DNA from: Pseudomonas entomophila
GTDB taxonomy: Bacteria > Pseudomonadota > Gammaproteobacteria > Pseudomonadales > Pseudomonadaceae
Direction of reading: 5' to 3'
Length of the DNA stretch: 64,000 bases
Assembly: GCF_023277925.1 (NCBI RefSeq)
Contig: NZ_CP063832.1
Location: forward strand, 248,001 to 312,000
Part shown: positions 19,468 to 38,421 of the stretch, one piece after another
Layout of the letters: each line of letters opens with the position of its first letter
How positions within the stretch are numbered: position 1 is the stretch's first letter
Translations under genes and position numbers: made by a program
The notes under the pieces: generated by a model
Told to the model about the DNA's origin: nothing
What the model saw: only the letters and a program-made list of their open reading frames with translations
Database searches by the model: none

Positions 19468-19557
19468 GGTGAAGTGTCCGAGTGGTCGAAGGAGCACGCC
19501 TGGAAAGTGTGTATACGAGAAATCGTATCAAGGGTTCAAATCCCTTCTTCACCGCCA
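19468..19557 (+). tRNA. tRNA-Ser (anticodon GGA)
   Basis: The 90-nt class II tRNA has acceptor stem GGTGAAG/CTTCACC, encoded CCA, anticodon stem CACGC/GTGTG with loop CTGGAAA giving anticodon GGA, and a long variable arm (tatacgagaaatcgtat). The T-loop ggttcaaatccc is conserved. The 3' part, from 19524, is the prophage-supplied copy of the attachment core. Confidence 0.95.
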
Positions 19558-19562
19558 CATTC
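19524..19562 (+). repeat. Prophage attachment site, tRNA side (attL)
   Basis: A 39-bp core beginning cgtatcaagggttcaaatcc and ending gccacattc, identical to 38383-38421. It spans the T-arm and acceptor of tRNA-Ser, the usual target of tyrosine integrases. Confidence 0.92.
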
Positions 19563-19565
19563 GAA

Positions 19566-19600
19566 AGCCCTTGATTCCATTAGGTTTCAGGGGCTTTTTC
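19566..19600 (+). terminator. Terminator after tRNA-Ser (phage-supplied side)
   Basis: An imperfect hairpin, agccctTGAttcc...gtttcaggggct, followed by TTTTTC. It lies inside the element, so it replaces the original chromosomal terminator that now sits beyond attR at 38429-38464. Confidence 0.6.
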
Positions 19601-19629
19601 AATTCTAGGACCTGAAAACCCACTCACAT

Positions 19630-19650
19630 TGGTACATTTGAGTGGTACAT
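19630..19650 (+). promoter_or_regulatory. Candidate integrase arm-type site, left
   Basis: tggtacat-ttgag-tggtacat, two direct tggtacat units, sits just before the integrase start. A 19/21 match occurs at 38304-38324, at similar distance from the other attachment core. Confidence 0.6.
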
Positions 19651-19651
19651 C

Positions 19652-21319
19652 ATGGGCACTATGGCAAATCCCTGGAAGCATCCGACCTCGGGTTACTACT
19701 ACATCAGAAGGGCAGTCCCGAAGGACCTTAAGCCCCTCTTGGGTGGTATCTACAAGAAAACCCTAGGGACCAAAGAGCTCGGGTCGGCCAAGGCCCTCTT
19801 CGCGGCTGCTTGGGTCGAGTCTGAGGCCAAGTTTGCCCTAGCAAGGTCTCAGCGAGACGGCGGGGAGCTCCTCACGGCGAGGGATGTGCAGCAATTAGCG
19901 GCGCGCTGGTTTACTCAAGAGCTCAATTCGGTAGAAGCCTCTGGGGACTTTGAGGCGTTCCTTATCCCTATCCCTGGAGAAGGTCCCGCGAGTCTTCGGT
20001 ATTGCTTCGATGACAGCGGGAAGGTCTCTGCGCTGGTGCGCCCCTACATCGCCCAAGCACTGACCGCCTACAACTTACCTCCTGTACCTCCAGGGGCTCT
20101 CTACGATTCTCTTGTAGAGGCGTTCTCTCAACACCTTTTTAAGCTTTCGGACTTGGCACTGGCTCGCCACAGTGGTGACTGGACGGCTCAGCCTGACGTG
20201 CTCCCCGAAGAGCCCCTCAAGGTGGAGCGCAAGGTCAAGCGCCATAAGTTGTCAGAGGTCTTTGCCCAGCTCAAAGCCGATAAGCTCGCCACTGAAGGTC
20301 ACACCCGGACAGCCCTGAAGACCTGCGACGAGTACGAAGCCGTGGTCCTCAAGTTCATCGAGCTTTTTGGTGACTTGCCAGTAGATCAGATTGATCGACA
20401 GACCATTCAGGACTATCGGATGCTCCTCCAGGAGCTCCCTTCGAAAGGAGAGGGTATCCGTGGCTTGAGTGCTAGGCAGCAGATAGAGAGGGCGAAGGCT
20501 GAAGGTCTTCCAACGCTTCAGGCTACGACCATCAAAACTCGCTTGAGGATACTTTCGGCAATCTTGGGCTTTGCTATTCAGCTCGGATTCATCAAGGAAA
20601 ACCCGGTGAGCACCTCTGGGGTTGCCACCAGGCTTGCCAAGAGCATTGCCAAGTCCAGCTCCGCCCAGCGCCGTAAGGACTACACGAGAGAAGAGCTGAA
20701 GAAGATTTTCTCCAGTCCGCTCTATACCAGCGCGGGATGGTCGCCACCTCGGAAGGATCTCGGAAAGGCTCTTTACTGGATCCCATTGTTGGCTCTGTAC
20801 ACTGGTGCTCGCCGTGAGGAGCTTGCTCAGCTCTTTGTGCGAGACGTTCGCAGGGGCTCAGAAGGGATCGCCTACCTGAGCATCCTTGAGACGGGCGATG
20901 ATGAAGAGCGCACGGTTAAGACTGCTGGCTCAAGGCGTGCCGTTCCAATCCACCCAGACCTTATCTCTTTGGGCTTCCTTGAATATGTCGAGGGGCTACC
21001 GGCCAATGGTCAGGTCTTCCCTCAACTGGCTCCTACAGAGGATGGCTGGTATGGCAAAGCGTTTGGTAAGCATTGGACCAAGTACCTAAGGGGTGTGGCT
21101 AAGCTCGAAAGCTCGGCCCCTCCATCCCACGGATTCCGACACACCTTCAAGACCCTATGTCGTGAGGTAGGGATCCCAGAGGATGTCCACGATGCACTCA
21201 CGGGACACTCAGACGGATCGGTCAGTCGGGACTATGGCTCGATGCCCCTGGAGAGGCTCTCAAGGGAACTCCAGCGCTTGCCCTCGATTGCGCATGAGGT
21301 CGGCCTTCTGGTGGGTTAA
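19652..21319 (+). CDS. Tyrosine recombinase (phage integrase)
   Basis: A 555-residue integrase. The N-terminal DNA-binding part opens with a YYYIRRAVPKDLKPLLGG segment typical of DUF6538-type integrases, a core-binding domain covers about residues 200-320, and the catalytic domain has Arg in TGARREELAQL (about 385) and H-x-x-R in HGFRHTFK (about 490). A later His lies in TGHSDGS and the nucleophilic Tyr in SRDYGS (about 530). It inserts the element into tRNA-Ser. The start overlaps the arm-type repeat, so self-regulation is plausible. It appears intact. Confidence 0.93.
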   Translation: MGTMANPWKHPTSGYYYIRRAVPKDLKPLLGGIYKKTLGTKELGSAKALFAAAWVESEAKFALARSQRDGGELLTARDVQQLAARWFTQELNSVEASGDFEAFLIPIPGEGPASLRYCFDDSGKVSALVRPYIAQALTAYNLPPVPPGALYDSLVEAFSQHLFKLSDLALARHSGDWTAQPDVLPEEPLKVERKVKRHKLSEVFAQLKADKLATEGHTRTALKTCDEYEAVVLKFIELFGDLPVDQIDRQTIQDYRMLLQELPSKGEGIRGLSARQQIERAKAEGLPTLQATTIKTRLRILSAILGFAIQLGFIKENPVSTSGVATRLAKSIAKSSSAQRRKDYTREELKKIFSSPLYTSAGWSPPRKDLGKALYWIPLLALYTGARREELAQLFVRDVRRGSEGIAYLSILETGDDEERTVKTAGSRRAVPIHPDLISLGFLEYVEGLPANGQVFPQLAPTEDGWYGKAFGKHWTKYLRGVAKLESSAPPSHGFRHTFKTLCREVGIPEDVHDALTGHSDGSVSRDYGSMPLERLSRELQRLPSIAHEVGLLVG

Positions 21320-21504
21320 GTCGCCGAAGCCTGGAGGGCCCCTAGGAGGACACCAAACGCCGCAGCGACATCAGGAGAAACGCTGTAGCCAGTAGCAGCC
21401 GCAACAGCGACCACAAAAGCCCATGTCCGCTTGTCCCGAGCCAGGACCAAGAGAGCCTTGCGGACCTTTTGAGCCTTGTCCTCATTTGCTTTCACTTCAG
21501 TCAT
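21316..21504 (-). CDS. Small holin-like membrane protein
   Basis: A 62-residue protein with a charged N-terminus (MTEVKANEDKAQKVRKALLV) and one hydrophobic segment (TWAFVVAVAAATGYSV). AAGGAGT lies upstream of the ATG. Size and topology fit T7-like class II holins (gp17.5, about 67 residues), and it is the last leftward gene of the late block. Holin function is inference. It converges with the integrase. Confidence 0.55.
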   Translation of the reverse strand: MTEVKANEDKAQKVRKALLVLARDKRTWAFVVAVAAATGYSVSPDVAAAFGVLLGALQASAT

Positions 21505-21700
21505 GGAAGACTCCTTGTGAAGGGTTACTGTAGATGGTTGATCATTAATTGATCCCATCCCAGGAAGGACTCATCAGGTTTGCTCAGGACCTCCCGAGAC
21601 TAACTCCTCGGTTACTCCTGAGTACACTCCTACTGTCTATACATAAGCATGCCCCTGAGTGCGTGAGGGTCTCCCTAATGTATGTGCTCTCGGGGGGGAT

Positions 21701-21717
21701 CTAAGGTGGGGAGGAAC
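21701..21717 (-). promoter_or_regulatory. 17-bp repeat, candidate T7-type promoter (copy 4)
   Basis: Minus strand GTTCCTCCCCACCTTAG. It is one of five related copies in the element and lies upstream of the holin-like gene. Confidence 0.45.
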
Positions 21718-21726
21718 ATTTTTCTT

Positions 21727-21743
21727 TATAGGTGGGGAGAAAC
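21727..21743 (-). promoter_or_regulatory. 17-bp repeat, candidate T7-type promoter (copy 5)
   Basis: Minus strand GTTTCTCCCCACCTATA followed by AAGAAA. The CCCCACCTATAAAG core recalls the CCCTCACTAAAG of T3-type promoters. It is in tandem with the copy at 21701. Confidence 0.45.
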
Positions 21744-21774
21744 AAAAGTGCATAGATATCAATTAATCAACGTT

Positions 21775-22374
21775 TCACGATAAGAGCCCTTCCTTACCCA
21801 GTTGCCGCTTCTGTTGTGCGCTCAGAGTTTTCAGGAATGGGCGCTTTAATGAGACCCCTGCGACCTGTCTGATCGCCTGCAAGGCGGGAACTCCTTCAGT
21901 CAGCAGGGTCAGCAGCTTCGGTTCACTGAAGCAACGGAACTGCGCCTCGAATTTGAAGGGGGCGAGTAGCTCCCGCTTTCTTTCTAAGGTGAGAGTCTCT
22001 TTGTTGCTCACCATTGACTCAAAATGGTTTTTGGGAAAGGCCCACTCTAGATTGTCCTTCTGGCAATTCCTTCCGTTTCCATCAATGTGTTTAACCTTGT
22101 AGCGACCTTCAGGCATCACAATGAATGCACGCCCCACAAAAAGGCTCACTGGCGAATAGTGGTTGAGCCCGTCTCGCACTAGGCAGACGTATAGGTGCCC
22201 GTTGTTTAACGCGGCTTTGAGGTAACGCGGCTGCCTTCGCTTGAAACTGAGGATAAGGCCGCTTTCCGTCACCGCGTAGTGGGGAAAATCAACAATAAGT
22301 TTTGCCAAGGTGTCTTCATAGGGGAACGAGGGGGCCTCGAATTGTTTTTGAGCAAGTTCCTTTAAGCATTCCAC
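21775..22374 (-). CDS. HNH homing-type endonuclease
   Basis: A 199-residue protein with a central HNH_3 motif VKHIDGNGRNCQKDNLEWAFPKNH (about residues 95-120), typical of free-standing phage homing endonucleases. The GTG start follows AGGAAG. It lies between the gp16-like gene and the holin-like gene, the region where T7 carries tail fibre and terminase genes. An endonuclease-driven exchange may have shaped this gap. Confidence 0.8.
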   Translation of the reverse strand: MECLKELAQKQFEAPSFPYEDTLAKLIVDFPHYAVTESGLILSFKRRQPRYLKAALNNGHLYVCLVRDGLNHYSPVSLFVGRAFIVMPEGRYKVKHIDGNGRNCQKDNLEWAFPKNHFESMVSNKETLTLERKRELLAPFKFEAQFRCFSEPKLLTLLTEGVPALQAIRQVAGVSLKRPFLKTLSAQQKRQLGKEGLLS

Positions 22375-22413: not shown

Positions 22414-25400
22414 TTAAGGCTCGTACATTCCGTGTTCCATCAGCCAGCCCAGCGCACCCTGTGTAGCGGGGTCATTTGGCATGGTGCCTTTAAGGTTTCT
22501 GAGTAGAGCTTCTTTCTGGCGGCGAATTTGATCTTCGTCTAGATCGTTTCGGAGGAGGTTGGCAGCGTTAATCGGAATAGATGCAAACTGGGTTGCCCAT
22601 TTCATGGCTGGGAAGTTGCCGACTTTTTCTGCAAGGCTAAGTGATGACCATGCCTTCGGGCGCTCTCCTGTATCTAGCTCTGTATCACGGGTAGTGCGTC
22701 CGAGGCCCGCGTAGGGCAGTCCTAGGGGACTACCGATGGTGTCCCAAGCAAGAGAGGGCCCCGCCATATAACTGGAACGCTTCAGAGCCCCAATAGCTAG
22801 AGTTGAGATATCCATCTCACCTGTATCGGGGTCGTAACCCATGGTGTTCTTGTAGAACTCCGTGCGCCTATCATCGTCCTGGATCGTTTGAGCGCGGACA
22901 GCTGCGAATGCAGCGACTCCGAGCGCGGATAGGCCCATCGACAATACGAGCTGAAGGGCCTCATCAGCATCTTTGTTGCGGATCCTGTTAGCCCCCTTCA
23001 GGAACTTCTTCTCCACGGACCTCATGGAGAATGTCTGGTATTGAGTAACGGCACCAATAAAGGGGTTTGCAGAGTCAGCCCAAATGAAGGTGTCCCCTAT
23101 GGACGGCCTCTGGATCACGTCCGTGGCTGCAATATCACCCATACGCCGAATCTCCGAGAGAGCCTCACGACCTTCAAGAAGCTTGCCAGAGTCCAGGGTG
23201 AAGCGGCCTTTGGAGTCAACGGTAGAGCTCTTCTTGACGTGCTCTAGGATCAGCTTGAGCTTCGTGCGATCCACATTCATGTACTTGAGCTTCGCCGCTG
23301 AAAAGACCTTTGACGGCTCTCCGTGAGCATGCCGAACGAGTACAGCCAGAAACTCCTCCTGAGCCGCCTTGACGATCCGGTTTGTGGTCGACCCTAGTAG
23401 CTGCGCCGAAGGAGCCCACCTTGCTAACCATGCGGTGCCTGCCTTAAACGCGGCGAAAGGGGCGGGGGAGCTTTGTAAGGCTACTTGGTAGACGCTGTTC
23501 AAGTGCGAGGGGTAGACGACATTATGAATCTCCTCACCCCAGAGGCGATTCTGGAGCATGGCCAAATCGTCCGCCGTAGCCTTTCCTTTGGCTACCCGCT
23601 GGAACATCTGGCCGACTTCTGGGAGGGCCTTGAAGAAAAACCCTAGTCCGTAGTTGTGAAGACCCGAAGCTATCTCGGTGTAATTCATCGGACCCATGTA
23701 GGCCGATTTGGCCACAAACGAGAGGTTCGTCAGGCTTTGAGTCAGGTGGTGGAGCCAAGACTCGTCGTGATTACCAAGGCTCATTCCATAGAGTTTCTTT
23801 GCGGCTATCTTCAGTGCGTTGAGGTCTCCGTCCAGTTGGCGTTTAAGTACAGCGTCACCAGAGCGCCCCGCTTTCGCGTTCTGCTGTTCAATCCGGGAGA
23901 GCCTCTCAGCGAACCCCGCATAGCCAGAGTCACCCAGCCCCACGGACATCGCCAAGTCTCCAGCGGTGCGCTTGTGGTAGCTGTGCATGATCGACCGAAC
24001 GTCACCGCTCCGAAGATCCTTGTTGATGCTGAACTCTGAGCCGTCCGCTAGGGTGATCTTCGCGTCAGTCGTGAAGAGTCCCCGAGACTTCATGAAATCA
24101 GGAAGCTCTGCCGGGTCCATGGTCTTGTAGAGATGGGCCTTGATGCGGCTCATATCTTGGTCCACGTAGCCCAAAGCCTGATTGCGAGCTCTCTGCTGAG
24201 CCCACTTCTGGAACTCCTCAGTGAGCTTCCCGTCAGGAGTCTCCGCTTTCACAGGCTCCAGGAGAGTCCACGTGGGGTTCTTCCGGGCTTCCTGCTCGGC
24301 CAGAGCCTTCATCTCCGCCTCAAACGCCTGGATGGCCTTGGTGCGAACCTCAGGGTTCTTCAGGGAGGCATAAAGAGCCTTCCCTGTGGTCTCAAGGAGC
24401 GCTTGGTCACCACCAGCCTTGGCCGAAGCTCTGGCGATCTTGGCGGTGTCCATGATGACCGGGGAGTAGTTCCTGACGCCTTGCCACTGGAGAGGGTTCT
24501 CAATGATGTCCGCACCAGACCCAAAGCGTCCTGCTGGAGTCAGTACGTCACCAATGCGCTGGTCATAGAAGTTACCCATCAGGTCAGCCGCTTCGGAGAC
24601 AGCCTGAGGAAGCCCCTCACGGTTGCCGGATTCACGGGCGAGGGTTACCAGATAGCCGAACTCTTCCTCCAGCTCAGCCTTCGAGAGGCCTGCATGACGC
24701 TGGGAGCGGATGTAGCTTTCTGCATGCCGGGAGTAGGTGGAATCAACATCAAACCACTCGTTGTCCAGGTTCCGCTTCACCTCTTCGCCAGTCATCCGAC
24801 CGAGCCCCGAGGTGCCATCCTTGTAACCCTTATCGTTCCTGAAGAGTCCCAGAGCGGCCTTGCGGATCTCTGAGTTCTGACTGGAGCGCATCCGTTCACC
24901 GATGGTCGAGATACGAGCCACGGGATTCAGGGTGTCCTCCATATCGAGGATCCCATTGAGCCGGTCGTACTCTTCAGACGCTTGCTCTTTGGAGACCGCT
25001 GGGGAGCCTTCCTTCTTGGCTGTACGCTGCTTGATATAGGAGGACTTGGAGAGTCTCTTCTCGGATCCCTCACGGAAGAACCCGAGATCCTGAGCCTGTT
25101 TCCTTGCAGCGTCTGAAGCCAAGATCCGTTCAGTCAGGGGACCGGGGCGGTAGGGTTGCTCAGAGATCACCCCAGCTTCCTCAAGGACCTTGGAGGTCTC
25201 AGCGTCCTCGACATACCGGAAGGAGTCCATGGGGTTGTTCCTACCGAAGGCCTGCTTGACCCCTACGGCGATCCCATGAAGCGCCGCTCCACCAACAGCT
25301 CCAGCGAGGATTGCAGACTGGTAGTCGGCATCGACACCTGTGGAGGACTCCCGGAGGGACTCCGTGAGGGCGCCATAGGCCGCTCCTTCGACGCCTGACC

Positions 25401-26385
25401 CAGCGGCTCCAGCGAGGACTCTGGCTGTGCCTGGATTGAACAAGCGCCCAACTTGTCCGAGGCCGGGGAGGAGCATTGCTCCGTAGGTGACTGGATCACC
25501 GAGCATCTCGCCTAACCCCCCCATCAGGCTTGTGAGTAGACCGCCTCTTGCGTCAGCCGCCGCACTCTCTCTGTTCTCTTTCGCAATCTCAATGAGGCCA
25601 TCCAAGTCATCTCCCGAGTGAGCGTGATCGAAAACAAAAGTGGCACCTGCTTCCCCGATGCCAGCCGTTGCGACCCTTTCCACATCCTCAGCGGTAGGTG
25701 ACCAATCTGGTCGAGCCTTCCAGCCGGTGACGTTATGAGCTCTGTGGTCGCTCGTGAAGGTTGACCGCCAGAGGCCTCCCATTAGGGCCTCCCAGGACGA
25801 GCGCTCGGAGTCCGTACCGAGCTCTACAGGGGTTGCTGTGGAGATCCGATCAAGGGCACTTTCTGCGGGAGCCGATGGGGTCCCAAAGTTGATGCGGCTG
25901 AGCGGTCTAGTGCCGTCTGGTGCCCAGCCTGATTGCTTTCCCTCAAGGATCTTCTGTAGATACCCACGGGTTTCCTCAGGGATCTCTGCGTTCTCGATGA
26001 TGCCCCCGGCCTTATCCAGCTTCCGCTGAAGAGCTGTAGGGCCCATGTTGTAAGCCGCCAGGGCCAGCTCATCGGAGCCCCCAAAGCGTTTCTTCAGGTC
26101 TGCCATGTAGCGCGCCTGAGCGGGAATCGCTTTCTGAGGATCGTGGAAGTCTGAATCGGTGAGGAGACCATAGGCCTTGCCAGTACCGGGGATGAACTGA
26201 GCGAGGCCCCGAGCCTGACCGTACTTGGTCATCGGCCCGAGTGCCTCAGGGTTCCAACTGGACTCAGCGAAGCCTTGACGCTCAAGGAGGTCAGGACTCA
26301 CGCCATGTGCTTCCCCAGCGGCCACATAGAGGGCCCGGTAGGGGGATTCTTTAGGCAAGCCGGTAGCGTCTGCGTCATTGCGCAT
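22414..26385 (-). CDS. T7 gp16-like internal virion (ejection) protein with transglycosylase domain
   Basis: A 1323-residue protein (T7 gp16 has 1318). The N-terminal lytic transglycosylase (SLT) domain has its catalytic Glu at residue 41 in GFAESSWNP, with GLAQFIPGTGKAYGL and LALAAYNMGP motifs. The long helical remainder keeps gp16 landmarks such as HSGDDLDGLIEIAKENRES and DYQSAILAGAVGGAA. In T7 it is ejected into the host, opens peptidoglycan and forms the inner-membrane part of the DNA conduit. The ATG is preceded by AAAGGA. No internal stop is seen, which is unusual in an element lacking a capsid. Confidence 0.93.
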   Translation of the reverse strand: MRNDADATGLPKESPYRALYVAAGEAHGVSPDLLERQGFAESSWNPEALGPMTKYGQARGLAQFIPGTGKAYGLLTDSDFHDPQKAIPAQARYMADLKKRFGGSDELALAAYNMGPTALQRKLDKAGGIIENAEIPEETRGYLQKILEGKQSGWAPDGTRPLSRINFGTPSAPAESALDRISTATPVELGTDSERSSWEALMGGLWRSTFTSDHRAHNVTGWKARPDWSPTAEDVERVATAGIGEAGATFVFDHAHSGDDLDGLIEIAKENRESAAADARGGLLTSLMGGLGEMLGDPVTYGAMLLPGLGQVGRLFNPGTARVLAGAAGSGVEGAAYGALTESLRESSTGVDADYQSAILAGAVGGAALHGIAVGVKQAFGRNNPMDSFRYVEDAETSKVLEEAGVISEQPYRPGPLTERILASDAARKQAQDLGFFREGSEKRLSKSSYIKQRTAKKEGSPAVSKEQASEEYDRLNGILDMEDTLNPVARISTIGERMRSSQNSEIRKAALGLFRNDKGYKDGTSGLGRMTGEEVKRNLDNEWFDVDSTYSRHAESYIRSQRHAGLSKAELEEEFGYLVTLARESGNREGLPQAVSEAADLMGNFYDQRIGDVLTPAGRFGSGADIIENPLQWQGVRNYSPVIMDTAKIARASAKAGGDQALLETTGKALYASLKNPEVRTKAIQAFEAEMKALAEQEARKNPTWTLLEPVKAETPDGKLTEEFQKWAQQRARNQALGYVDQDMSRIKAHLYKTMDPAELPDFMKSRGLFTTDAKITLADGSEFSINKDLRSGDVRSIMHSYHKRTAGDLAMSVGLGDSGYAGFAERLSRIEQQNAKAGRSGDAVLKRQLDGDLNALKIAAKKLYGMSLGNHDESWLHHLTQSLTNLSFVAKSAYMGPMNYTEIASGLHNYGLGFFFKALPEVGQMFQRVAKGKATADDLAMLQNRLWGEEIHNVVYPSHLNSVYQVALQSSPAPFAAFKAGTAWLARWAPSAQLLGSTTNRIVKAAQEEFLAVLVRHAHGEPSKVFSAAKLKYMNVDRTKLKLILEHVKKSSTVDSKGRFTLDSGKLLEGREALSEIRRMGDIAATDVIQRPSIGDTFIWADSANPFIGAVTQYQTFSMRSVEKKFLKGANRIRNKDADEALQLVLSMGLSALGVAAFAAVRAQTIQDDDRRTEFYKNTMGYDPDTGEMDISTLAIGALKRSSYMAGPSLAWDTIGSPLGLPYAGLGRTTRDTELDTGERPKAWSSLSLAEKVGNFPAMKWATQFASIPINAANLLRNDLDEDQIRRQKEALLRNLKGTMPNDPATQGALGWLMEHGMYEP

Positions 26386-26540
26386 GGTGTGGATTCCTTT
26401 TAATGCTGCCGCCTGGTTCCCTTCTGCCCTGAGTCTCCAGCGCCCACAAGGGCAACTCAGGCAGACTCAGGCGACAGGAATAAACGGGCTGGAGATTTTG
26501 AGAAAGCTGCTGGGATGCAGCGGAGAGGCGGGGCTAGTAA

Positions 26541-27149
26541 CTACTGTCCGGAGGTGTTACCTGTCTGTCCCTTATTTGAAGGGTTATTGGCTTTGTAGGT
26601 GCTGTAAGCATTACCCGCTTGTTGTCCGAGGGAGAGAAGCTGGGCCCACTTCGAGGGCTGAGAGTTGACCACTTGGCGGCGCAGCTCGTTGAGACGCTGC
26701 TGGGTGCCAATCTGATTGGTCTGCTTGATGAGGAGGGATTGTGCGACTGTCCGCTTGAAGTTGTCCCTGATGCTGTCCTCTGCGCGGAGGTCCGAGCCTT
26801 TGGCGGCGCGCATGACCCGATCCATCGAATTCCCCTCCATACCTGTCTCAGATACAGCGGCCCGAAGGGCGGCGATGTTCATAATGGAGTTCGTCTGGGT
26901 GCTGGAAAGGTCTGCGGCGGCTTGCTCTGCGGCGGCTTGCACCTCTAAGTCAGTAGATTGATTGGCGAAGTTATACGTCTGACTTAGTGCCGCAACTTGA
27001 GCTTTGTAGTCCTCCTCAATCCTGGCGCGGTTTTCCTTGTCCGCCTTTCCGCCGACGAAGAGGCCAATCACTGCGCCGATTGCTGCTCCCCAAGGACCTG
27101 CGGCAGACCCTGCCTGAGCGCCTGCAACGGCACCGTTAAGTGCTGACAT
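26541..27149 (-). CDS. T7 gp14-like internal virion protein
   Basis: A 202-residue protein (T7 gp14 has 196). A Gly/Ala-rich hydrophobic N-terminus (GAAIGAVIGLFVGG) is followed by a helical body containing ALRAAVSETGMEGNSMDRVMRA, matching gp14's IRAAIGESMLEGSSMDRI. In T7, gp14 enters the outer membrane during ejection and starts the channel. Start ATG with a GAGGAAA site. It is immediately upstream of the gp16-like gene. Confidence 0.88.
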   Translation of the reverse strand: MSALNGAVAGAQAGSAAGPWGAAIGAVIGLFVGGKADKENRARIEEDYKAQVAALSQTYNFANQSTDLEVQAAAEQAAADLSSTQTNSIMNIAALRAAVSETGMEGNSMDRVMRAAKGSDLRAEDSIRDNFKRTVAQSLLIKQTNQIGTQQRLNELRRQVVNSQPSKWAQLLSLGQQAGNAYSTYKANNPSNKGQTGNTSGQ

Positions 27150-27160: not shown

Positions 27161-27478
27161 CTAGTGTGGACCATAGACATGGGTGTTAAAGCCCACTGGC
27201 GCTTCGCGGGATTTAAGGGGACCCACTTGGTGGCTCAAACAGGAGAGCAACTCGTCATAGGCTTCTTCCGCTTCCACCATCGTGTTCTTGACCTGCTCGG
27301 TCATGAAGTCACTTCTTGAAGAGTTCACTGGGGCTGATTGGACTGAGTATCTACAGCCGTCAGTGAAGCGGTGTTCGAATAGAACTACTCCCACTGTACC
27401 GGCTGCATCGTTAGCGACTCGAAGCATCCGAGCAGAGATCATCCTGGGAGTGCTCGGGGATTCTTTAGGGATAGCCAT
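27161..27478 (-). CDS. Small phage protein, position of T7 gene 13
   Basis: A 105-residue protein starting MAIPKESPSTPRMISARML with AGGAGG upstream. I see no convincing sequence match; T7 gp13 lies just before gene 14 and is of similar size, so the suggestion rests on position only. Confidence 0.5.
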   Translation of the reverse strand: MAIPKESPSTPRMISARMLRVANDAAGTVGVVLFEHRFTDGCRYSVQSAPVNSSRSDFMTEQVKNTMVEAEEAYDELLSCLSHQVGPLKSREAPVGFNTHVYGPH

Positions 27479-30647: not shown

Positions 30648-30688
30648 AGATAGTCCAGATAGTTGCGCTGCTGTGAAGGGAGCTCCTG

Positions 30689-30735
30689 TGTGAAATCTGC
30701 AATAGCTCAGGTCTGCTAGCCCCTCAGATTTCACA
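30689..30735. promoter_or_regulatory. Perfect 11-bp inverted repeat
   Basis: TGTGAAATCTG (30689-30699) and its exact complement CAGATTTCACA (30725-30735), with a 25-bp spacer, lie between two leftward phage genes. It could be an operator pair or an RNA hairpin. Confidence 0.6.
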
Positions 30736-30756: not shown

Positions 30757-31218
30757 TCAAAGGGCGTCACCGCGATCTTTTGCGTGGGAGATGTCCAGGA
30801 GACCCCGAAGGGCGCGCGGAAGAAGCGATTGGAGAGGGATAGGGTTTGTCCCGAACTGAAGCCCCTTGAGGGCGCGCCAAGTCCACGCCGGTTCATTGAA
30901 AGCTCCGACCTCCAACCACTCTTGGAAGCTATGCCGCGCCCACTGGCATCCCGTAGATGCGTTGAAGGCTCCGAAGGGGAACCTCCAGGAGTCCAGGTAA
31001 ATGAAGTTCATTGCCTTGGGGCTGTGGTCCGATTCAAGGGCCACCTCAAGCGCCTTCATTTGAGCTCGGGTGGTTTGCTCATCTGCCCAGGTAAGAAGGG
31101 CCTGAGTGTCCTCATTCAGGTTCCCAGAGTCGGGCCATGCTGAGTGAAAGAGGTCGGCAAGGAATGGTAGAGCTTCTTTAGGAGCATCCAACGGCAGCTG
31201 CTTGATAAGGTCGGTCAT
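30757..31218 (-). CDS. Hypothetical phage protein
   Basis: A 153-residue acidic, Trp-rich protein (MTDLIKQLPLDAPKEALPFLADLFH). AAAGGA precedes the ATG. A run of 12 G on the plus strand lies 17-28 bp upstream of the start. Family not recognised. Confidence 0.6.
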   Translation of the reverse strand: MTDLIKQLPLDAPKEALPFLADLFHSAWPDSGNLNEDTQALLTWADEQTTRAQMKALEVALESDHSPKAMNFIYLDSWRFPFGAFNASTGCQWARHSFQEWLEVGAFNEPAWTWRALKGLQFGTNPIPLQSLLPRALRGLLDISHAKDRGDAL

Positions 31219-31253: not shown

Positions 31254-31469
31254 TTATGAATGGTTCGCTTCGGATGGCACTTCTCGGGTTTCCACAAGGA
31301 AACTCTCTCGTCCCGAGGCACAGTCACAAAGGGCAATTCCCACCACTTGCCCGCTCAGACCGTCCGTAACGGTGAAGCTGTGGAAGCTCCCGCGCCTACG
31401 GTGGTTGAGGGTGGTGCCAGGGGTCATGGCTGCTTGCGTCCACTCGCTGGCTGTGGTCTTAGAAATCAT
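31254..31469 (-). CDS. Small hypothetical phage protein
   Basis: A 71-residue protein starting MISKTTASEWTQAAMTPGTT, with AAAAGGA upstream of the ATG. It is divergent from the regulator gene at 31609, so the intervening 139 bp are a likely control region. Function unknown. Confidence 0.55.
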   Translation of the reverse strand: MISKTTASEWTQAAMTPGTTLNHRRRGSFHSFTVTDGLSGQVVGIALCDCASGRESFLVETREVPSEANHS

Positions 31470-31608: not shown

Positions 31609-31899
31609 ATGCCTATTAACTATATGAAAAGTGATTTTGATTTATCAGGACTATTGGGTAGGTCGCTATTGTTGATGCGGATGGCTGGCCCTAAGGCTTT
31701 GTCGGAGAATGGCGAGACCCCAGTATCTCGCTGGAAGAACATCGGACAGGGTAGGGCTCGCTTAGGCACCGAGGAGCTAGAAACGCTTGCCCGTATGTTT
31801 CCTGCTTACCAGCAATGGCTGTTGACTGGTGTGGCTGAAGCCTCTGTTGCGCAGACAACACCGCATGATTCAGGGGAGGTGCTTGAGATCGACGCTTGA
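31609..31899 (+). CDS. Repressor-like DNA-binding protein
   Basis: A 96-residue protein. LLGRSLLLMRMAGPKALSENGETPVSRWKNIGQGRARLGTEELETLARMFP is a helix-turn-helix arrangement like the small XRE-related regulators of Pseudomonas prophages. It is transcribed against the lytic-type genes and heads a three-gene rightward cluster, the expected place of a lysogeny regulator. No LexA-like protease domain is present. Confidence 0.65.
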   Translation: MPINYMKSDFDLSGLLGRSLLLMRMAGPKALSENGETPVSRWKNIGQGRARLGTEELETLARMFPAYQQWLLTGVAEASVAQTTPHDSGEVLEIDA

Positions 31900-32193: not shown

Positions 32194-32209
32194 GCGGAGA
32201 GTGACGACC

Positions 32210-32401
32210 ATGCTTAACCCAGTCATTGCAGTCATCCAGGCGAGGGCAAAGCTCCTGGATATCCAGCAGAGCCCTCAGAACTTGGATGATGCCTCCGTGA
32301 CTCTTGCTGGATGGATCGAGATGAATCAGGAGGAGCTCCCAGAGGATGACCTTGCGATCCTCTGGGGGGGGGATACTGACGGGCAACCTTGTATGCGCTA
32401 G
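32210..32401 (+). CDS. Small hypothetical protein with G9 tract in the coding region
   Basis: A 63-residue protein (MLNPVIAVIQARAKLLDIQ). Nine consecutive G at 32364-32372 encode part of AILWGGDTD near the C-terminus, so a one-base slip would change the tail. It is third in the rightward regulator cluster. Confidence 0.5.
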   Translation: MLNPVIAVIQARAKLLDIQQSPQNLDDASVTLAGWIEMNQEELPEDDLAILWGGDTDGQPCMR

Positions 32402-32422: not shown

Positions 32423-33418
32423 CTAAGGCGCTATACGAAGCCCAGCAGCTTTGTATTTTTCCCGGATCGATTGGTCAATTGAATCTACAACCCGGCTCGA
32501 CGACCCTGTTAGTTGTTCGCCCGCAAGTAGATGGATTGCATCTACGATCTCGGCGCGGAGCTCTCTGTTTGCGAACAACTGTACCGTTATGAGCAAATTT
32601 GGCATTGCACAGAAATCGCTAATCAAGCCGCGCTGAAGCTTTACTTCTCGCTCCAGGACGCTCAGTCCCTTAAGTTCGTTGAGTACAGCTTCAGCCATCA
32701 CCAATTCATCATTGGTCAGCCGTTTTTTCGTAGGGATGCTCTGAAGCTTGTGTAAGAAGGCGTAGGCTTGCTTAGTGTAATTGAGTTTCTCTAGCTCTAA
32801 CCATGGCCCAAGACCTTTCAATGTTCCGCAGTCATGAGGATACCATGAGTTTTCAGTTATCATCTTGCCGCTGTCATCCTTGCCCTTTTTAACAATCAGG
32901 TATTCACAGCTAACTTTAGGGGTGTTGCGCTTCCAGCGATCAGCGAGGGCGATAATCAATTTTAAGGGCAGTGTCACGAATACCCGGCCAGCATCCGCTT
33001 GTAAAGACCTTACCTCTTGGAGGATGGCCTTAACGTTACTCACCAGCTCATCTTTCGTAGAGAGTAGATTTTCAATTTTGGCGCGCCTGATAGCATCCCG
33101 CTCGCTGGCGGACAGCCGTCTGAAGTCGTTTTTAACTTTGTCGTCATCTAAACCTAGATGGTTAAGAGCGCAACAGTGCCCAATGAGGACTTGCTTGTCA
33201 TCGCATGTTTCGACTACGAAGCCATGTTGATGTGCCTGTCCGCAGTTCTTATTCTTCTTCAAGAACTGGCATTTAGCGTCGGCGTTGATCAGCTCGTAAG
33301 AGCGCAGGGGGCGGCGGTAAGCCTGCTTGGTGAGTACGTAATCGCGCGTGATGTTGAACATCTGGTCGATTTCTTCAAGGGTTTTTATTTCATGAATGGA
33401 GGAATTCACTGAGAGCAT
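32423..33418 (-). CDS. Unrecognised accessory protein with putative zinc-binding N-terminus
   Basis: A 331-residue protein. The N-terminal region has Cys50, Cys59, His63, His65, Cys72, His81, Cys82 and Cys83 with GFVVET and VLIGHCCALNHLG, a pattern like phage treble-clef zinc modules. The rest is helical and Lys/Leu-rich. AGGG lies upstream of the ATG. It occupies the place where the catalytic two thirds of the T7-like RNA polymerase should be and is more AT-rich in style, so it is probably a later insertion (a moron). A role in host or phage defence is possible but unsupported. Confidence 0.6.
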   Translation of the reverse strand: MLSVNSSIHEIKTLEEIDQMFNITRDYVLTKQAYRRPLRSYELINADAKCQFLKKNKNCGQAHQHGFVVETCDDKQVLIGHCCALNHLGLDDDKVKNDFRRLSASERDAIRRAKIENLLSTKDELVSNVKAILQEVRSLQADAGRVFVTLPLKLIIALADRWKRNTPKVSCEYLIVKKGKDDSGKMITENSWYPHDCGTLKGLGPWLELEKLNYTKQAYAFLHKLQSIPTKKRLTNDELVMAEAVLNELKGLSVLEREVKLQRGLISDFCAMPNLLITVQLFANRELRAEIVDAIHLLAGEQLTGSSSRVVDSIDQSIREKYKAAGLRIAP

Positions 33419-33557: not shown

Positions 33558-34580
33558 TTATCTGGGGGCCTCCCCGAGGATGCACGGGTAAGAGGAGATC
33601 ACGTTGCGCTTCCATGAGAGGACCTCACGGGCCACGTCAAGGACAGGCGTGTTGATTGCCCAGCAGGCGGTCTCCTGGATGGCGTTCACGGCCGCATAGA
33701 CAGGGGTGAGGTCGAGCTCGTTATAGACGCTCTTCACGACCTGCATGGGAGCCCGCACGAAGAGGATAGGGCGGGTGTGCTCAGTGTAGTAGCCACCTCC
33801 CATCCAATGGGTCCATGGATTCGGAGGGACCACGGTAGGAAGGTGCACTGTGGCCATCTCGGCCAGCTTGAGGTTGATCCTGTTGGCCCTCTCAGCGAAC
33901 TCAGGGGACATCGAGAGGACCAGTGAGGTGTCCTTCACCGAGGCGGAGCCCGAGGAGACCCTCTGGAGGTGCCCAAGGCCGGTTGCCTGAAGCGCGATAG
34001 ACAACAGGTGCATGCCGACCTTCACAAGGTCAGCCTCATTGCGACCATCTTCTTCGACCTCAAGCCTCCTCTCCCAGGCTTGCAGATAGGCGCGCTTAAC
34101 GTGGTCCCCGTGGCGCTGTTTGAGACCCTGCTCAATAGCGCCCTGATAAGCCCTGCCATATTCAGCTTTCAGCTTCTCAGCCTTGAACTGAGTATCCAAG
34201 TCCAAGCCGATCTTCCTGGCCACGACAGTGTTAGTCATAGGCTTACCCATGAAGGCGGTCATAGTGGCCCTCAAGGTGATGTAAGCAACCACCTTCGAGT
34301 CCATCTTCTCGATGTACTTGAGTAGTGTGGACTTGCGACCACCTTTAGGGCCACTGGCCTCTTCCCTCCAGTCATCAATTGCCTTGGCAACTAAAGGAAC
34401 GCCCTCGCGGAAGATCCATGAGTAAGCCTGGACGCCATTCACGTCCCCTTCCTGCATCGACTTCTCAAGTTCCTTTGTGAAGTTCAGAGTCCCAAGCTCC
34501 GATCCCTCGATTTCTAATTGTAATTGTCGTTCAGCCAACGCTGCCCCGAACTTCTCTATCAGGTGCTCATGCGGTGTCAT
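33558..34580 (-). pseudogene. T7-type single-subunit RNA polymerase, N-terminal domain only
   Basis: A 340-residue ORF matching roughly residues 20-335 of T7 RNA polymerase (883 residues). It starts EKFGAALAERQLQLEIEGSELG and includes VVAYITLRATMTAFMG, VVPPNPWTHWMGGGYYTEHTRP and a WKRN segment. The promoter-binding N-terminal fold is present; palm, fingers and catalytic Asp residues are gone. The frame breaks at a G5 tract (33564-33568); removing one base restores PDKPYDIVTNPEA, like T7 MKPEDIDMNPEA, before homology stops. GGAGGG precedes the ATG at 34580. A surviving function as a decoy cannot be excluded. Confidence 0.88.
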
Positions 34581-34685
34581 TTGATCCCTCCAAGGATCAG
34601 CAGGCAATGGGGTGCCAACATAGAAACTTGGGAGTCATTCACACGGACACTCTTATAGAGTATCTGTATGTAATCCTAGAAGGAT

Positions 34686-34702
34686 CTAAGGTGGGGAGAA
34701 AC
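34686..34702 (-). promoter_or_regulatory. 17-bp repeat, candidate T7-type promoter (copy 1)
   Basis: Minus strand GTTTCTCCCCACCTTAG followed by ATCC, 106 bp upstream of the RNA polymerase remnant. Confidence 0.5.
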
Positions 34703-34727: not shown

Positions 34728-34728
34728 T

Positions 34729-35574
34729 TTAGGCGTAGTGGTTCTTCTGCCACACGGTTTCGAGGGCTTCAAGAGGCCACACTCGGGCCCCGGCCTCTTT
34801 ACCTGGCCAGATAGTCAGCCCATAGAACTTGCAGTGAACGCTAACCATGTACCCGAAGTTGCTGAGCTCGCTTCCAAAGAGCTTATGCCCCTTCATGATG
34901 CTGAAATCTTGAGCCTTCATGAACTCAGAACGCTTCTGTGGTGGCACAGGGCGTTTGGTATTGGTGAAGGGGTGAGACACCATGCCATACAGGTCCTGTT
35001 GAACCGGGCGGGATGTTGGGGCTGCGCTTATTGCGCACTCTGCAAGAGCAGGTCTCAGGTCTTGTAGGATTTCCTTACGGAGCTCCTCTTTGAAAACACC
35101 GAACATCTGAGCAACTAGCCCAGCGAGTTTCTGTGTGGTGTCCTGTTGAAGGACCTGAGGGGCGGCTACGGGAGTGGTTTTTTGAGCAGCCACTACGGAC
35201 GATTCAGCAGGCTTCTCGATGGTGACTGTGGAGACCCCTCTGAGGATGTCATCAATCATCAGGGAGCAATGCACAGCGAAGCGCGGATCAAGCCACCATG
35301 CGTAGAAGACAGCGATTTTTGGATGACCCCAGGTGCCACTGTTGTAGCGCCCACGGGTGGCGATGGTTAATTCCCTGAAATCTAGGGTTTTAGAAAACTC
35401 ATCCATGGCCTCCTTGGTGTTGGGACTGTCCCAGAAATTGGAAAGCTTCTTGTCAAAGTGTTGGGCGGCCTTCGTCATATTGAAGTAGCCGTCCTCCCTG
35501 AAGGTGAACGTCTTCCCCTGCCAATCCTTAGTGATTAGCGCTGGTTTACTCACGGTAATGCTTTTCGTAGACAT
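34729..35574 (-). CDS. KilA-N domain phage regulator
   Basis: A 281-residue protein. A KilA-N domain covers about residues 14-115: TFREDGYFNMTKAAQHFDKK, then RGRYNSGTWGHPKIAVFYAWWLDPRFAVHCSLMIDDIL. A Gln/Ala-rich linker leads to a distinct C-terminal domain (SIMKGHKLFGSELSNFGYMVS). KilA-N proteins are phage DNA-binding regulators or antirepressors. AGGAGC precedes the ATG. It sits between the SSB/amidase fusion and the polymerase remnant in one leftward unit. Confidence 0.85.
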   Translation of the reverse strand: MSTKSITVSKPALITKDWQGKTFTFREDGYFNMTKAAQHFDKKLSNFWDSPNTKEAMDEFSKTLDFRELTIATRGRYNSGTWGHPKIAVFYAWWLDPRFAVHCSLMIDDILRGVSTVTIEKPAESSVVAAQKTTPVAAPQVLQQDTTQKLAGLVAQMFGVFKEELRKEILQDLRPALAECAISAAPTSRPVQQDLYGMVSHPFTNTKRPVPPQKRSEFMKAQDFSIMKGHKLFGSELSNFGYMVSVHCKFYGLTIWPGKEAGARVWPLEALETVWQKNHYA

Positions 35575-35608
35575 GCGGGTGCTCCTAGGGTCCTCATGAA
35601 GAGGCCCA

Positions 35609-36676
35609 TCAGTGCTCCTCGATCACGCTCACATCAAAGCTCGGACAGGCCAAATGGCCACAGTGATGATCTGCGAAAAGGTCCCGGTGACCGAGGATCT
35701 TGGCGCGTTCATAGCGAGACTTGAGCTGGGCCAGGAGGACCCTCAAGGTGTCGTATTGGGCTTGGGTGAAGTTGTCTGCGGGTTTCCCGTGGGCATCCAC
35801 ACCACCGACCATACAGACCCCAATGGAGTTGCTGTTGTGGCCGGATACATGGGCGCCGATCTCGGATTCTCGCCGGCCATTCTCGATGGTCCCGTCACGA
35901 CGAATCACATAGTGGTAACCGATGGTCACGAAGCCGCGCTTGAGGTGCCATTGAGTGATCTCACGGCGCCCAATGTCAGCCTTCGGGCCAGTTGCGGAGC
36001 AATGCACAACAATCAGGTCTGTGCGGTCTCGGTCCTTGCTGGCGGAGTAGGACTGTGGCTGTTCCGAGTCTTGTAACGAGCCATACCCACCAGGATCGGG
36101 CGCTTCCTCTTCAAGGCTGAAACCAAAGGAGGATGCCTCAGGGAGGGGCGGCTCCACTAGTTTCAGGATCTTCACGGCGCGGATAAACAGGGTGACACCT
36201 GCACCCAGCAGGGCGTTGTAAAAAGGGGAGATGAATACCGAGATTCGGGCTACGGTGCCGGTGCCAATCTTCAGGTCATGGGTCAGGGCTTTGCCCTTGC
36301 CATCGAACAGAGCGATCTTGCGCTCAACGGTCTGACCGGTTTTCCGGTCGGTGTAGCTTGCCTTCGACTTGAAGTTGAAGACCAGATAGTCCTCACCGTT
36401 CTCGTCGGTCTCCTCCACTGGGAGGTCCGCCAGCATCACCTTCTTGCCGGAGCCTTTCTTCTTGGACTCCGCTTCCTGCACTTGGCGGTCGTGCTCTTCC
36501 TGCTGGACCTTCTCCAAGAGCTCCAGAAACTTCGCCGCTTGAGGGTCGGAGGCCTTGGCCTTCAAATTGGTCTTGTAGACGCCCGCCTCATCGAACTTGG
36601 TGTCAGGTTCCACCAGGCAAGGCCCTATGAGGGCTCCTATGGGAGTTACTGCTTCGAACTTCGCCTGACTTATCAC
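35609..36676 (-). CDS. Fusion of T7 gp2.5-like ssDNA-binding protein and gp3.5-like amidase/lysozyme
   Basis: A 355-residue single frame. Residues 1-180 follow T7 gp2.5 (GVYKTNLKAKASDPQAAKF, DYLVFNFKSKASYTDRKTGQ, YNALLGAGVTLF) and end in an acidic tail EEEAPDPG. Residues 215-355 follow T7 lysozyme gp3.5: His225 in VVHCSAT, Tyr254 in GYHYVIRRDG, NSIGVCMVGG, His330 in LGHRD and Cys344 in ACPSFD. The position of catalytic Lys128 of T7 lysozyme is Leu342. In T7 these are separate genes with gene 3 between them. T7 lysozyme also binds and inhibits T7 RNA polymerase. Start GTG, with a weak site. Confidence 0.85.
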   Translation of the reverse strand: MISQAKFEAVTPIGALIGPCLVEPDTKFDEAGVYKTNLKAKASDPQAAKFLELLEKVQQEEHDRQVQEAESKKKGSGKKVMLADLPVEETDENGEDYLVFNFKSKASYTDRKTGQTVERKIALFDGKGKALTHDLKIGTGTVARISVFISPFYNALLGAGVTLFIRAVKILKLVEPPLPEASSFGFSLEEEAPDPGGYGSLQDSEQPQSYSASKDRDRTDLIVVHCSATGPKADIGRREITQWHLKRGFVTIGYHYVIRRDGTIENGRRESEIGAHVSGHNSNSIGVCMVGGVDAHGKPADNFTQAQYDTLRVLLAQLKSRYERAKILGHRDLFADHHCGHLACPSFDVSVIEEH

Positions 36677-36835: not shown

Positions 36836-36864
36836 AGTATTAAATTCCTAATAGTTTTAGTCAA
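36836..36864 (-). promoter_or_regulatory. Candidate sigma-70 promoter of the leftward early unit
   Basis: On the minus strand TTGACT (36859-36864), a 17-bp spacer and AATACT (36836-36841). It overlaps the end of the recombinase gene and faces the SSB/amidase gene. Confidence 0.5.
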
Positions 36865-37420
36865 TTATAGGTTGTCCGGCTTTCCGGGTTCTATAAACCG
36901 TGGTGCGGTCCAATCCGAGCTCCTTGCCGATGGCTGTATCTCCCAGACCCTGCGCTTTGAGGGCCAAGATACGCTCTAGTAGAGGTTCCCCTTTGGGCTT
37001 CCGGCCCTTGTACTTCCCATCAGCCTTGGCCTTCGCTATACCCTCCCGCTGACGCTCTAGCATCATCTCCCGCTCAAACTGCGCCACAGAGCCCAGTACG
37101 TTAAGCATCAAGCGCCCGCCCGCAGTAGTCGAGTCGATCCCCATGCCCAAGATATTCAGGCCTGCCCCTATCTCATCGAGTCTCTTCAGGATCTCCCCCA
37201 GGTGATGAACGCTCCGGGCCAGGCGGTCCAGCTTGGTAACCACCAGAAGGTCTCCCTTGCGGAGATCCTGAAGCATGCGCTCAAGCTCTGGGCGCTCAGC
37301 TACGGATGACACCTGCTCCTTGTAGAGCTTTTCTACTCCAGCGGCTATGAGCTCCCGTTCCTGAGCCTCAAAGCCTGCGACCTGTTCAAGGGTAGAAGTC
37401 CGAGCGTACCCGATGCGCAT
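36857..37420 (-). CDS. Serine recombinase (resolvase/invertase family)
   Basis: A 187-residue protein. The catalytic domain starts MRIGYARTSTLEQ (nucleophilic Ser9), with KLDRLARS near residue 65 and GSVAQFEREMMLERQREGIAKA as the long E helix. A C-terminal helix-turn-helix (GDTAIGKELGLDRTTVYRTRKAG) follows. Full length for a resolvase. GGAG precedes the ATG. It may resolve multimers or invert a segment; the repeat cluster just upstream could be its site. Confidence 0.9.
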   Translation of the reverse strand: MRIGYARTSTLEQVAGFEAQERELIAAGVEKLYKEQVSSVAERPELERMLQDLRKGDLLVVTKLDRLARSVHHLGEILKRLDEIGAGLNILGMGIDSTTAGGRLMLNVLGSVAQFEREMMLERQREGIAKAKADGKYKGRKPKGEPLLERILALKAQGLGDTAIGKELGLDRTTVYRTRKAGQPIID

Positions 37421-37785
37421 GATGAGATCTCCGTGAAGTGTTGCATTAGGGTCTTAAGATGTCCATAAGGTAGTGTTGCAAAATTGAATAGTCAACTCCA
37501 ATGCAACGCTTTCAGATGCTTGCTGCAACGTTGCGTTAGGGCAAGGTCTACTGCAACGGTGGGTGTTGAGAGGTTGCTCCAGAGAACGCCCATGAGGTGC
37601 CCCTTGGTCCACTTACAGAGGCGCCCACACGCAGGCGCGCATGAGTAACCGGGTGTGCGCCCACGCGCGGGGCCCCCACGGGGGTAAACCAAAGCGCGTT
37701 CACCTTAATGAGAGGTCTCACAAATTTTCCTGAAATTCCATCAGGCACTCTGCTAAAAGCAGGAGACACAACCTAGGGAAGGCCC
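37421..37785. other. Intergenic region with TGCAACG repeats and a GC-rich palindromic stretch
   Basis: TGCAACG occurs at 37502, 37524 and 37552, and GTTGC(A/G)TTAGGG at 37440-37451 and 37530-37541, a cluster suited to a recombinase or replication-protein site. Then 37615-37690 is strikingly GC-rich, with gcgcccacacgcaggcgcgc, gtgcgcccacgcgcgggg and cccccacggggg motifs, unlike the AT-rich surroundings. No gene is supported. Confidence 0.5.
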
Positions 37786-38301
37786 ATGGAAATTTTGATC
37801 AAAGTCACCTTGCCAATTATCACTGCGATAGTGCTCTGGTTCCTAAAAGCGTCGAAAGAACGAAGCACGATTGGCCTAGCGATCTTCGCAGAGATCAACG
37901 CCATCTGTGAGATTGCAGAAGAACGTTCATATTTGAAGGGTCTGAAGGACCAAGCGGAGGTGCTTAGGAATCGAGAGGAGGGAGATGACTCTAGCTATGC
38001 CCTTCAAGTCAAAGTGCCTGACCACTACTGTCGGCTCTACATCAACAACCTTGACGCCATAGGAAAGCTGGATGCGGACGAGGCCGCTCTGGTTGTCCGT
38101 TTCTATCAGTTCGTTGATAGCGTCGTTCAAGACATAACAGAAGGCGGCTGCTTGGCTGCTGGTGTCGATGAGCCTGATTCGTTCGATGAGACCATCACGA
38201 TTTTCGAGAAGGCTCTCGCGGCTGCTGACCAGTTGAGAGCGGTTAGGGCCGCGAAGGCGGAGCAACCCTGGTACAGAAAACTACTGCGCATGATCGCTTG
38301 A
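37786..38301 (+). CDS. Unrecognised membrane-anchored protein next to attR
   Basis: A 171-residue protein with one N-terminal transmembrane helix (ILIKVTLPIITAIVLWFL) followed by a cytoplasmic helical domain rich in Asp/Glu and ending in a basic WYRKLLRMIA. GGAAGG precedes the ATG. Last gene before the attachment site, a typical location for a cargo gene expressed from the prophage. Function unknown. Confidence 0.65.
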   Translation: MEILIKVTLPIITAIVLWFLKASKERSTIGLAIFAEINAICEIAEERSYLKGLKDQAEVLRNREEGDDSSYALQVKVPDHYCRLYINNLDAIGKLDADEAALVVRFYQFVDSVVQDITEGGCLAAGVDEPDSFDETITIFEKALAAADQLRAVRAAKAEQPWYRKLLRMIA

Positions 38302-38303
38302 GC

Positions 38304-38324
38304 TGGTACATGTCAGTGGTACAT
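38304..38324 (+). promoter_or_regulatory. Candidate integrase arm-type site, right
   Basis: tggtacat-gtcag-tggtacat, 19 of 21 bases identical to 19630-19650, 58 bp from the attR core. Confidence 0.6.
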
Positions 38325-38382
38325 TTTTCTTCGTCTGTGGTCTAGAATGCCCAGCAAACATTGGGCTTTACAGGTCTGGCAG

Positions 38383-38421
38383 CGTATCAAGGGTTCAAAT
38401 CCCTTCTTCACCGCCACATTC
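38383..38421 (+). repeat. Prophage attachment site, distal side (attR)
   Basis: A 39-bp copy of the tRNA-Ser 3' end, identical to 19524-19562. The 5' part of a tRNA is not present here, so it is a fragment and not a second tRNA. Confidence 0.92.

Follow-up and report, generated by a model that had tools for sequence, protein, structure and literature searches.

Gene content and borders of the element

The window analysed here is a 64,000-bp stretch of the Pseudomonas entomophila contig NZ_CP063832.1, and its positions 19524-38421 hold an 18.9-kb integrated element that carries genes of T7-like phages. The element is bounded by an exact 39-bp direct repeat (19524-19562 and 38383-38421), whose integrase-side copy overlaps the 3′ part of the tRNA-Ser gene with anticodon gga (19468-19557, plus strand), the integration target, and its G+C content is lower than that of most of the flanking DNA. 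The tyrosine integrase gene at this side (19652-21319, plus strand) matches PHROG_1. An earlier reading of the letters alone (the sequence-only reading) had described an intact integrase and matched attachment (att) sites, and both descriptions proved correct.

Family scans identified three full-length genes for the internal virion (ejection) proteins of T7-like phages, all on the minus strand: gp15 (27494-29821; 775 aa; positions 1-739 of 752 of PHROG_1339), gp14 (26541-27149; 202 aa; positions 13-180 of 189 of PHROG_805) and gp16 (22414-26385; 1323 aa, with an SLT transglycosylase domain; positions 11-1220 of 1235 of PHROG_342). This near-total profile coverage agrees with the complete lengths previously proposed for the three proteins. 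Together with the open reading frame ORF105 (27161-27478, minus strand), their order is gp15, ORF105, gp14, gp16, as opposed to 14-15-16 in T7. The scans also revealed a 355-aa fusion of a single-stranded DNA-binding protein (SSB, gp2.5) to a lysozyme (gp3.5) (35609-36676, minus strand; PF21265 and PF01510), the N-terminal part of a T7-like RNA polymerase (33558-34607, minus strand), a KilA-N domain protein (34729-35574, minus strand), a serine recombinase (36857-37420, minus strand), a helix-turn-helix (HTH) regulator (31609-31899, plus strand) and an HNH endonuclease (21775-22374, minus strand). The lysozyme domain reported earlier is therefore present; it is not free-standing, being fused to SSB, and its gene lies upstream of the polymerase fragment, an arrangement unlike that of T7.

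As the sequence-only reading had stated, capsid, portal, tail, terminase and DNA polymerase genes were not detected; neither these nor a helicase gene appeared when 20 window proteins were scanned for known families or when 134 element ORFs of at least 40 aa were compared with a full relative (E 1e-4). With no full RNA polymerase, capsid, portal, tail or terminase, the element does not qualify as a complete T7-like (Autographiviridae) prophage. Family scans of its orphan ORFs gave nothing informative, and the island-specific 1.6 kb had no match in the plasmids or phages searched.

A second island with the same core

We searched a profile of the fusion against 398 Pseudomonas genomes and obtained matches in 19, two of which carry both halves in one frame: the genome of the window and G129, a second Pseudomonas species. 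In a family-wide draw of 398 genomes, which overlaps the first, the one-frame fusion was found only in the window's own genome. The G129 island measures 19.8 kb, lies between 53-bp repeats at the 3′ end of the signal recognition particle (SRP) RNA gene and has an integrase only 28% identical to that of the window. It contains, in the same order and at about 40-96% protein identity, the serine recombinase (96%), the SSB-lysozyme fusion (72%), KilA-N (61-71%, split by an inserted ATPase gene), the HTH regulator (83%), ORF71 (63%; 31254-31469 in the window), ORF153 (81-82%; 30757-31218), ORF142 (49%; 30306-30734), ORF105 (51%), gp14 (79%), gp16 (69%) and an equally placed HNH endonuclease (42%), ORF71, ORF153 and ORF142 being on the minus strand of the window. 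In each of the two Pseudomonas species, att repeats flank this core; the integration site and the integrase differ, and no virion-building or replication enzymes were detected.

In both islands, the HTH gene and the ORF71-gp16 block are divergently oriented, and gp16 has an N-terminal extension. The islands also share the spacer between gp14 and gp16 (26386-26540, minus strand), the usual place of gp15, which is absent from it; the G129 island has neither gp15 nor the polymerase fragment. The spacer (6943-7104 of locus L066 in G129) can fold into a long hairpin that includes two compensatory pairs, a structure of modest support (z about -1.5 in each of two sequences).

The sequence-only reading had asked whether the same reduced set exists elsewhere at tRNA-Ser. 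The core does recur, in an island that uses the SRP RNA site and is without gp15. Its parasitic-island proposal would have been refuted by deletion junctions confined to this strain; instead, the SSB-lysozyme fusion and the gp14-gp16 junction are found in G129, and the fusion in six more protein clusters. The recent deletion of an ordinary prophage was rejected on the basis of the architecture common to G129.

ORF153 follows the fusion closely: it was found in 2 of the 398 Pseudomonas genomes, exactly the two with the one-frame fusion, and, when 194 relatives of G129 were searched, only in G129 itself. The protein databases contain 12 clusters of ORF153, and six further clusters with both fusion domains (query coverage 96-100% in five and 74% in the sixth), including one from Pseudomonas chlororaphis. 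The longest-contig values 9870, 4274 and 18851 recur between the fusion and ORF153 clusters, which suggests shared contigs. Aligning the fusion against genome contigs confirmed no further case. Viral contigs contain relatives of the fusion, and the three loci matching both halves (L018-L020) carry them as separate ORFs; neither ORF153 nor KilA-N was found in viral contigs. The AlphaFold model of ORF153 (mean predicted local distance difference test score, 52) was too poor for a fold search.

Full T7-like relatives

The closest full relatives are two IMG/VR phages, phage A (3300012832_000015, 41.6 kb, loci L012 and L018) and L011 (3300034196_000039, a 21-kb part), together with the prophage of Pseudomonas sp. 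HMWF032 (G154). Phage A and L011 resemble the island in the integrase (75%), gp15 (80-81%), gp14 (74-76%), gp16 (65-69%) and the right-end repeats and DNA; a 37-bp match to the window att site lies at the edge of phage A, and a complete tRNA-Ser(gga) gene lies beside the L011 integrase. In G154, gp14-16 are 57-60% identical to those of the island. Phage A has SSB, lysozyme and polymerase genes as the island does; however, in phage A and G154, SSB and lysozyme are separate genes, the structural and replication genes are present and the order is 14-15-16. Specifically, phage A encodes portal, capsid, tail, terminase, helicase, DNA polymerase and a complete RNA polymerase. In the 33 kb of G154 that were read, phage A's large genes for structure and replication had matches and its integrase had none; a full polymerase lies further upstream. 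The orphan core genes of the islands were not found in phage A or G154, apart from a weak similarity of ORF105 to a G154 gene upstream of the polymerase.

Relatives of gp15 were found in 5 of the 398 Pseudomonas genomes (the window's own, G154 at 60% and three at 23-27%), and aligning gp15 against genome contigs returned only the HMWF032 prophage. Terminase, capsid and portal genes were present in the stretches read of G096 and G262. In G184 (L010 4299-16146), a distantly related T7-like element has an integrase and a full polymerase near a truncated gp15 (161 aa); its gp16 match is limited to profile positions 403-1224, and it also has gp14. This element may represent either true decay or an independent reduction.

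Selection on and exchange of the ejection genes

Selection was estimated with our own script implementing a GY94-type codon model (F3x4, 2 to 5 taxa), with synonymous sites near saturation for several genes. Between the window and G129, the dN/dS ratio (omega) ranged from 0.014 to 0.33, and omega = 1 was rejected in all nine shared genes tested; KilA-N was omitted because it is split in G129. The genes common to the islands are under purifying selection. For gp14, omega between the two islands was 0.017, with synonymous sites near saturation, and no informative estimate was obtained for the G129 branch. Omega = 1 was rejected for both gp16 (0.107) and gp15 (0.105) on the window branch, and for gp16 on the G129 branch (0.107, p = 0.004). 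Values near 1 for gp14-16, which the sequence-only reading had named as refuting its parasitic-island proposal, were thus not obtained.

The ejection genes have been exchanged with full phages, as indicated by the DNA identity of G129 to L011, which is 92% for gp16 and 84% for gp14. Monophyly of the island gp16 was considered and not found, and the placement of the G129 gene with full phages is read as exchange. In the window, gp15 was probably a later acquisition from a phage: the 35 bp after it belong to the phage gp15/gp16 junction, a pattern that such an acquisition would leave.

The SSB-lysozyme fusion

We compared eight fusions with 23 unfused lysozymes. Twelve of 16 prophage loci provided a usable ORF (L057, L058, L060 and L061 were dropped), and six of 26 amidase-only clusters were chosen by hand. 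All eight fusions retain the zinc ligands and the catalytic tyrosine. The lysine equivalent to T7 K128 is replaced in every one of them, by R in six, L in one (the window) and T in one, whereas it is present in 22 of the 23 unfused lysozymes, the exception being the divergent L020. The fused lysozymes occupy one branch (support 87/85), a grouping that is suggestive rather than firm. On average, the fusions are 70% identical to the phage A lysozyme over T7 residues 2-12, 91% over residues 13-52 and 47% over residues 118-151. On the island branches, omega was 0.136 for the SSB part and 0.222 for the lysozyme part (background 0.083).

Some distant amidases are active with another residue at the lysine position, so the loss of amidase activity from the fused lysozyme is only inferred. 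The available part of PMC8124813 contains no mention of such amidases. The acidic C-terminal tail of SSB, which ends in Phe in T7, phage A and G154, is missing from the two fusions aligned beside them, and loss of this tail harms the function of T7 gp2.5.

The well-kept part of the fused lysozyme (T7 residues 13-52) lies within T7 lysozyme residues 2-52, which contact the polymerase (PMC5445346), and is a putative polymerase contact. In T7, the K128Y variant (LysY) has no amidase activity and inhibits the polymerase fully (PMC5732464). The fusion resembles LysY in that the catalytic lysine is lost and the polymerase-contacting region is largely kept; in contrast, it is natural, lies behind an SSB domain, has R, L or T in place of the lysine, and its activity is predicted from sequence. 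Additionally, in T7-like phages of Pseudomonas, the lysozyme can act as an inhibitor of a related phage's polymerase, an effect for which its N-terminal tail is important (PMC10138996).

Promoter-like repeats, terminal DNA and the polymerase fragment

The repeat TTTCTCCCCACCTTAG occurs in three copies in the window at up to two mismatches, as compared with 0.04 expected, in line with the repeated T7-type promoter candidates of the sequence-only reading. Part of it, CACCTTAG, resembles the T7 promoter core, CACTATAG. In phage A, eight copies were found at up to three mismatches, all intergenic and on the late-gene strand; for this reason, plus-strand promoters were rejected. Both islands have a phage-type repeat after ORF142 (30287-30302, minus strand, in the window) and a repeat pair after the HNH gene (21730-21742 and 21701-21716); another window repeat lies upstream of the polymerase fragment (34686-34701, minus strand). 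The repeat pair is followed by about 200 bp of non-coding DNA (whole region 21529-21748, minus strand) that is conserved in both islands and in phages L011 and L012 and ends where G129 diverges. At the left end, non-coding DNA (37647-37738, minus strand) is also common to both islands and phage A. The promoter-like repeats and the terminal DNA match those of full T7-like phages; among viral contigs, the right-end motif was found only in L011 and phage A. In T7, the counterpart of the right-end region comprises the right-end promoter and the concatemer junction. Based on this correspondence, the region is a candidate promoter and packaging region.

The polymerase ORF is 87% identical to a phage RNA polymerase of 884 aa over residues 5-342 of the latter and ends there, as expected from the earlier description of a polymerase N-terminal domain without catalysis, and omega = 1 was not rejected. 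The sequence-only reading had counted this fragment in favour of a parasitic island over a recent deletion; the island is favoured, without the support of the fragment, which is absent from G129 and for which neutrality was not rejected. The same two results led us to reject it as a core decoy, and it is probably incidental. A search of proteins of similar length gave two relatives only. One, P0048, is a 321-aa stand-alone polymerase N-terminal fragment, 89% identical to that of the window, on contigs of up to 48.8 kb, which speaks against the fragment being purely incidental. The other, P0049 (460 aa, longest contig 7.7 kb), joins the polymerase N-terminus to the gp16 C-terminus and is another rearranged relative.

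Accessory genes

Several genes lie outside the core. Next to the window integrase, a minus-strand ORF of 80 aa (21316-21558) is 66-68% identical to a small right-end ORF of phages L011/L012 and was not found in G129. ORF126 (29818-30198, minus strand) has no G129 orthologue, and ORF331 (32423-33418, minus strand; PHROG_7003, function unassigned) lies in a variable region. A 66-aa early ORF (PHROG_21839), on the strand opposite the late genes, is present in both islands (32201-32401, plus strand, in the window; L066 1134-1343 in G129) and is 69% and 91% identical, respectively, to its phage A counterpart. In G129, a cargo region between KilA-N and HTH (L066 1475-4056) contains an NsnA-type gene (E 7e-37) adjoining an ATPase gene; the best matches of this ATPase are other defence ATPases, with NsnB among the weaker ones. 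At the left end, the 171-aa window ORF (37786-38301, plus strand; hydrophobic N-terminal stretch) and L065 14511-15242 of G129 occupy equivalent positions and orientations. The two have no detected relationship and both contain hydrophobic stretches, as judged by eye; they are possible exclusion or defence genes.

A probable phage-derived satellite and its alternatives

These results give good support to a family of conserved, mobile islands derived from phages. We consider it probable that its members are integrated satellites derived from temperate T7-like phages, and the element is likely a helper-dependent satellite: much the same pared-down gene set in a second species points to an evolved parasite rather than a dying virus. 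Its activation, packaging and mobilisation by a helper, and what the ejection proteins and the fusion would do, may be pictured as follows. The HTH repressor would silence the island in cells free of infection. Upon infection by a T7-like helper, or induction of one, the helper's single-subunit RNA polymerase would use the repeats as promoters and drive the ejection-protein block. The helper would replicate the island DNA, which could be packaged by means of the retained right-end region; gp14 and gp16 (with gp15 in the window) would join the particles as an ejection machine or alter that of the helper. The fusion, with a polymerase-facing lysozyme part, no catalytic lysine and no SSB acidic tail, might tune or inhibit helper transcription and replication. 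Two island copies per phage head are conceivable, given islands of 18.9 and 19.8 kb and at least 41.5 kb for phage A. This fullest version, in which a new family of T7-like phage satellites would supply its own ejection machine (gp14/gp16, optionally gp15) for helper particles, be switched on by the helper polymerase and commandeer polymerase and replication through the fused protein, is a tentative proposal that we regard as somewhat doubtful in its entirety.

In favour of a decayed prophage, whose middle was deleted and whose remainder is inert, are the polymerase, of which the first 340 residues are left and for which omega = 1 was not rejected, the split KilA-N of G129, and broken relatives such as the 460-aa polymerase-gp16 protein and G184 with its 161-aa gp15 and partial gp16. 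However, a second species has the reduced architecture and its junctions, with intact frames and protein identities of about 40-96%, omega is far below 1 in 9/9 shared genes tested, and the orphan core genes were not found in phage A. Decay is already contradicted by these results, and we consider it very improbable. A resident anti-phage island that blocks T7-like phages and moves by its integrase and occasional transduction, with no packaging parasitism, appears unlikely. Decoy ejection proteins, a lysozyme-SSB inhibitor and defence cargo are its proposed means of blocking, and the NsnA-type cargo of G129, the lysozyme without its catalytic lysine and the SSB without its tail as candidate inhibitors, and the polymerase fragment of the window would all suit it. 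Nevertheless, both islands keep the right-end and left-end non-coding DNA of the phage, and the whole 1323-codon ejection protein is kept; packaging and transfer explain this phage-end DNA and intact gp16 better than resident defence does. The transglycosylase domain kept in gp16 would also fit a weapon or transfer device that acts from cell to cell or is borne by particles, for instance foreign ones, and is unrelated to T7-like parasitism. This we find hardly credible, as no capsid or tail genes were found in the island and the repeats and terminal DNA are of the T7-like phage type.

Several observations weigh against a helper-dependent satellite. Only two whole islands, those of the window and G129, were read end to end. 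In the genome of the window, the phage A capsid was unmatched (in a search without a positive control), no helper was found, and the phage A polymerase was matched by the fragment only. G129 and full phages group together in the gp16 tree, and the tree of gp14 does not resolve; given this and the exchange with full phages, part of the constraint on gp14 and gp16 may date from phage life. The SSB halves of the fusions do not resolve into one clade either. The N-terminal lysozyme tail has diverged in the window copy, and KilA-N is interrupted by an AAA ATPase gene in G129. Excision, induction, packaging and transfer of the island are predictions from its sequence.

Comparison with known satellites

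A phage satellite is not a phage and encodes mechanisms or DNA signals that favour its packaging in phage-made particles (PMC11389934). Genes for building a particle alone were not found in the element, and its candidate packaging-related features are terminal DNA and ejection proteins common to full phages. Additionally, it is integrated and has its own integrase and att sites, a common trait of mobile elements outside the quoted definition. The element therefore has the structural, and not yet the functional, attributes of a phage satellite. Among the matches listed from the open-licence PMC literature, no satellite of a T7-like phage was found.

If the satellite reading is true, the element discarded capsid and terminase and yet kept its ejection proteins, which raises the testable question of whether these proteins determine which DNA is delivered to the next host. 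The laboratory inhibitor LysY has a natural parallel in the fused protein. Defence-like genes are carried by one island of the two (G129), and the islands swap genes with full phages. Since single-subunit phage polymerases are very well understood, the proposed control circuit is quickly testable.

Like the P4-like, PICI, PLE and PICMI satellites, the island is integrated, is about half the size of a phage, has no capsid or tail genes, and carries a repressor-type regulator and defence-like cargo. No AlpA-type or other satellite hallmark was found in Pfam scans of 20 window proteins. PICMIs integrate next to fis and have AlpA among their core proteins (PMC10803314); in contrast, the two islands lie at tRNA-Ser and SRP RNA sites and have no AlpA match. 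Capsid-forming PICIs and the Streptomyces satellites Mulch and Flayer resemble the island in having virion components of their own. However, the former encode a capsid and the latter encapsidation machinery (PMC10690885), which the island is without, as it keeps ejection proteins only. Unlike the P4-like, PICI, PLE and PICMI satellites, the island is visibly built of pieces of its presumed helper type, retains ejection proteins and would have a T7-like helper.

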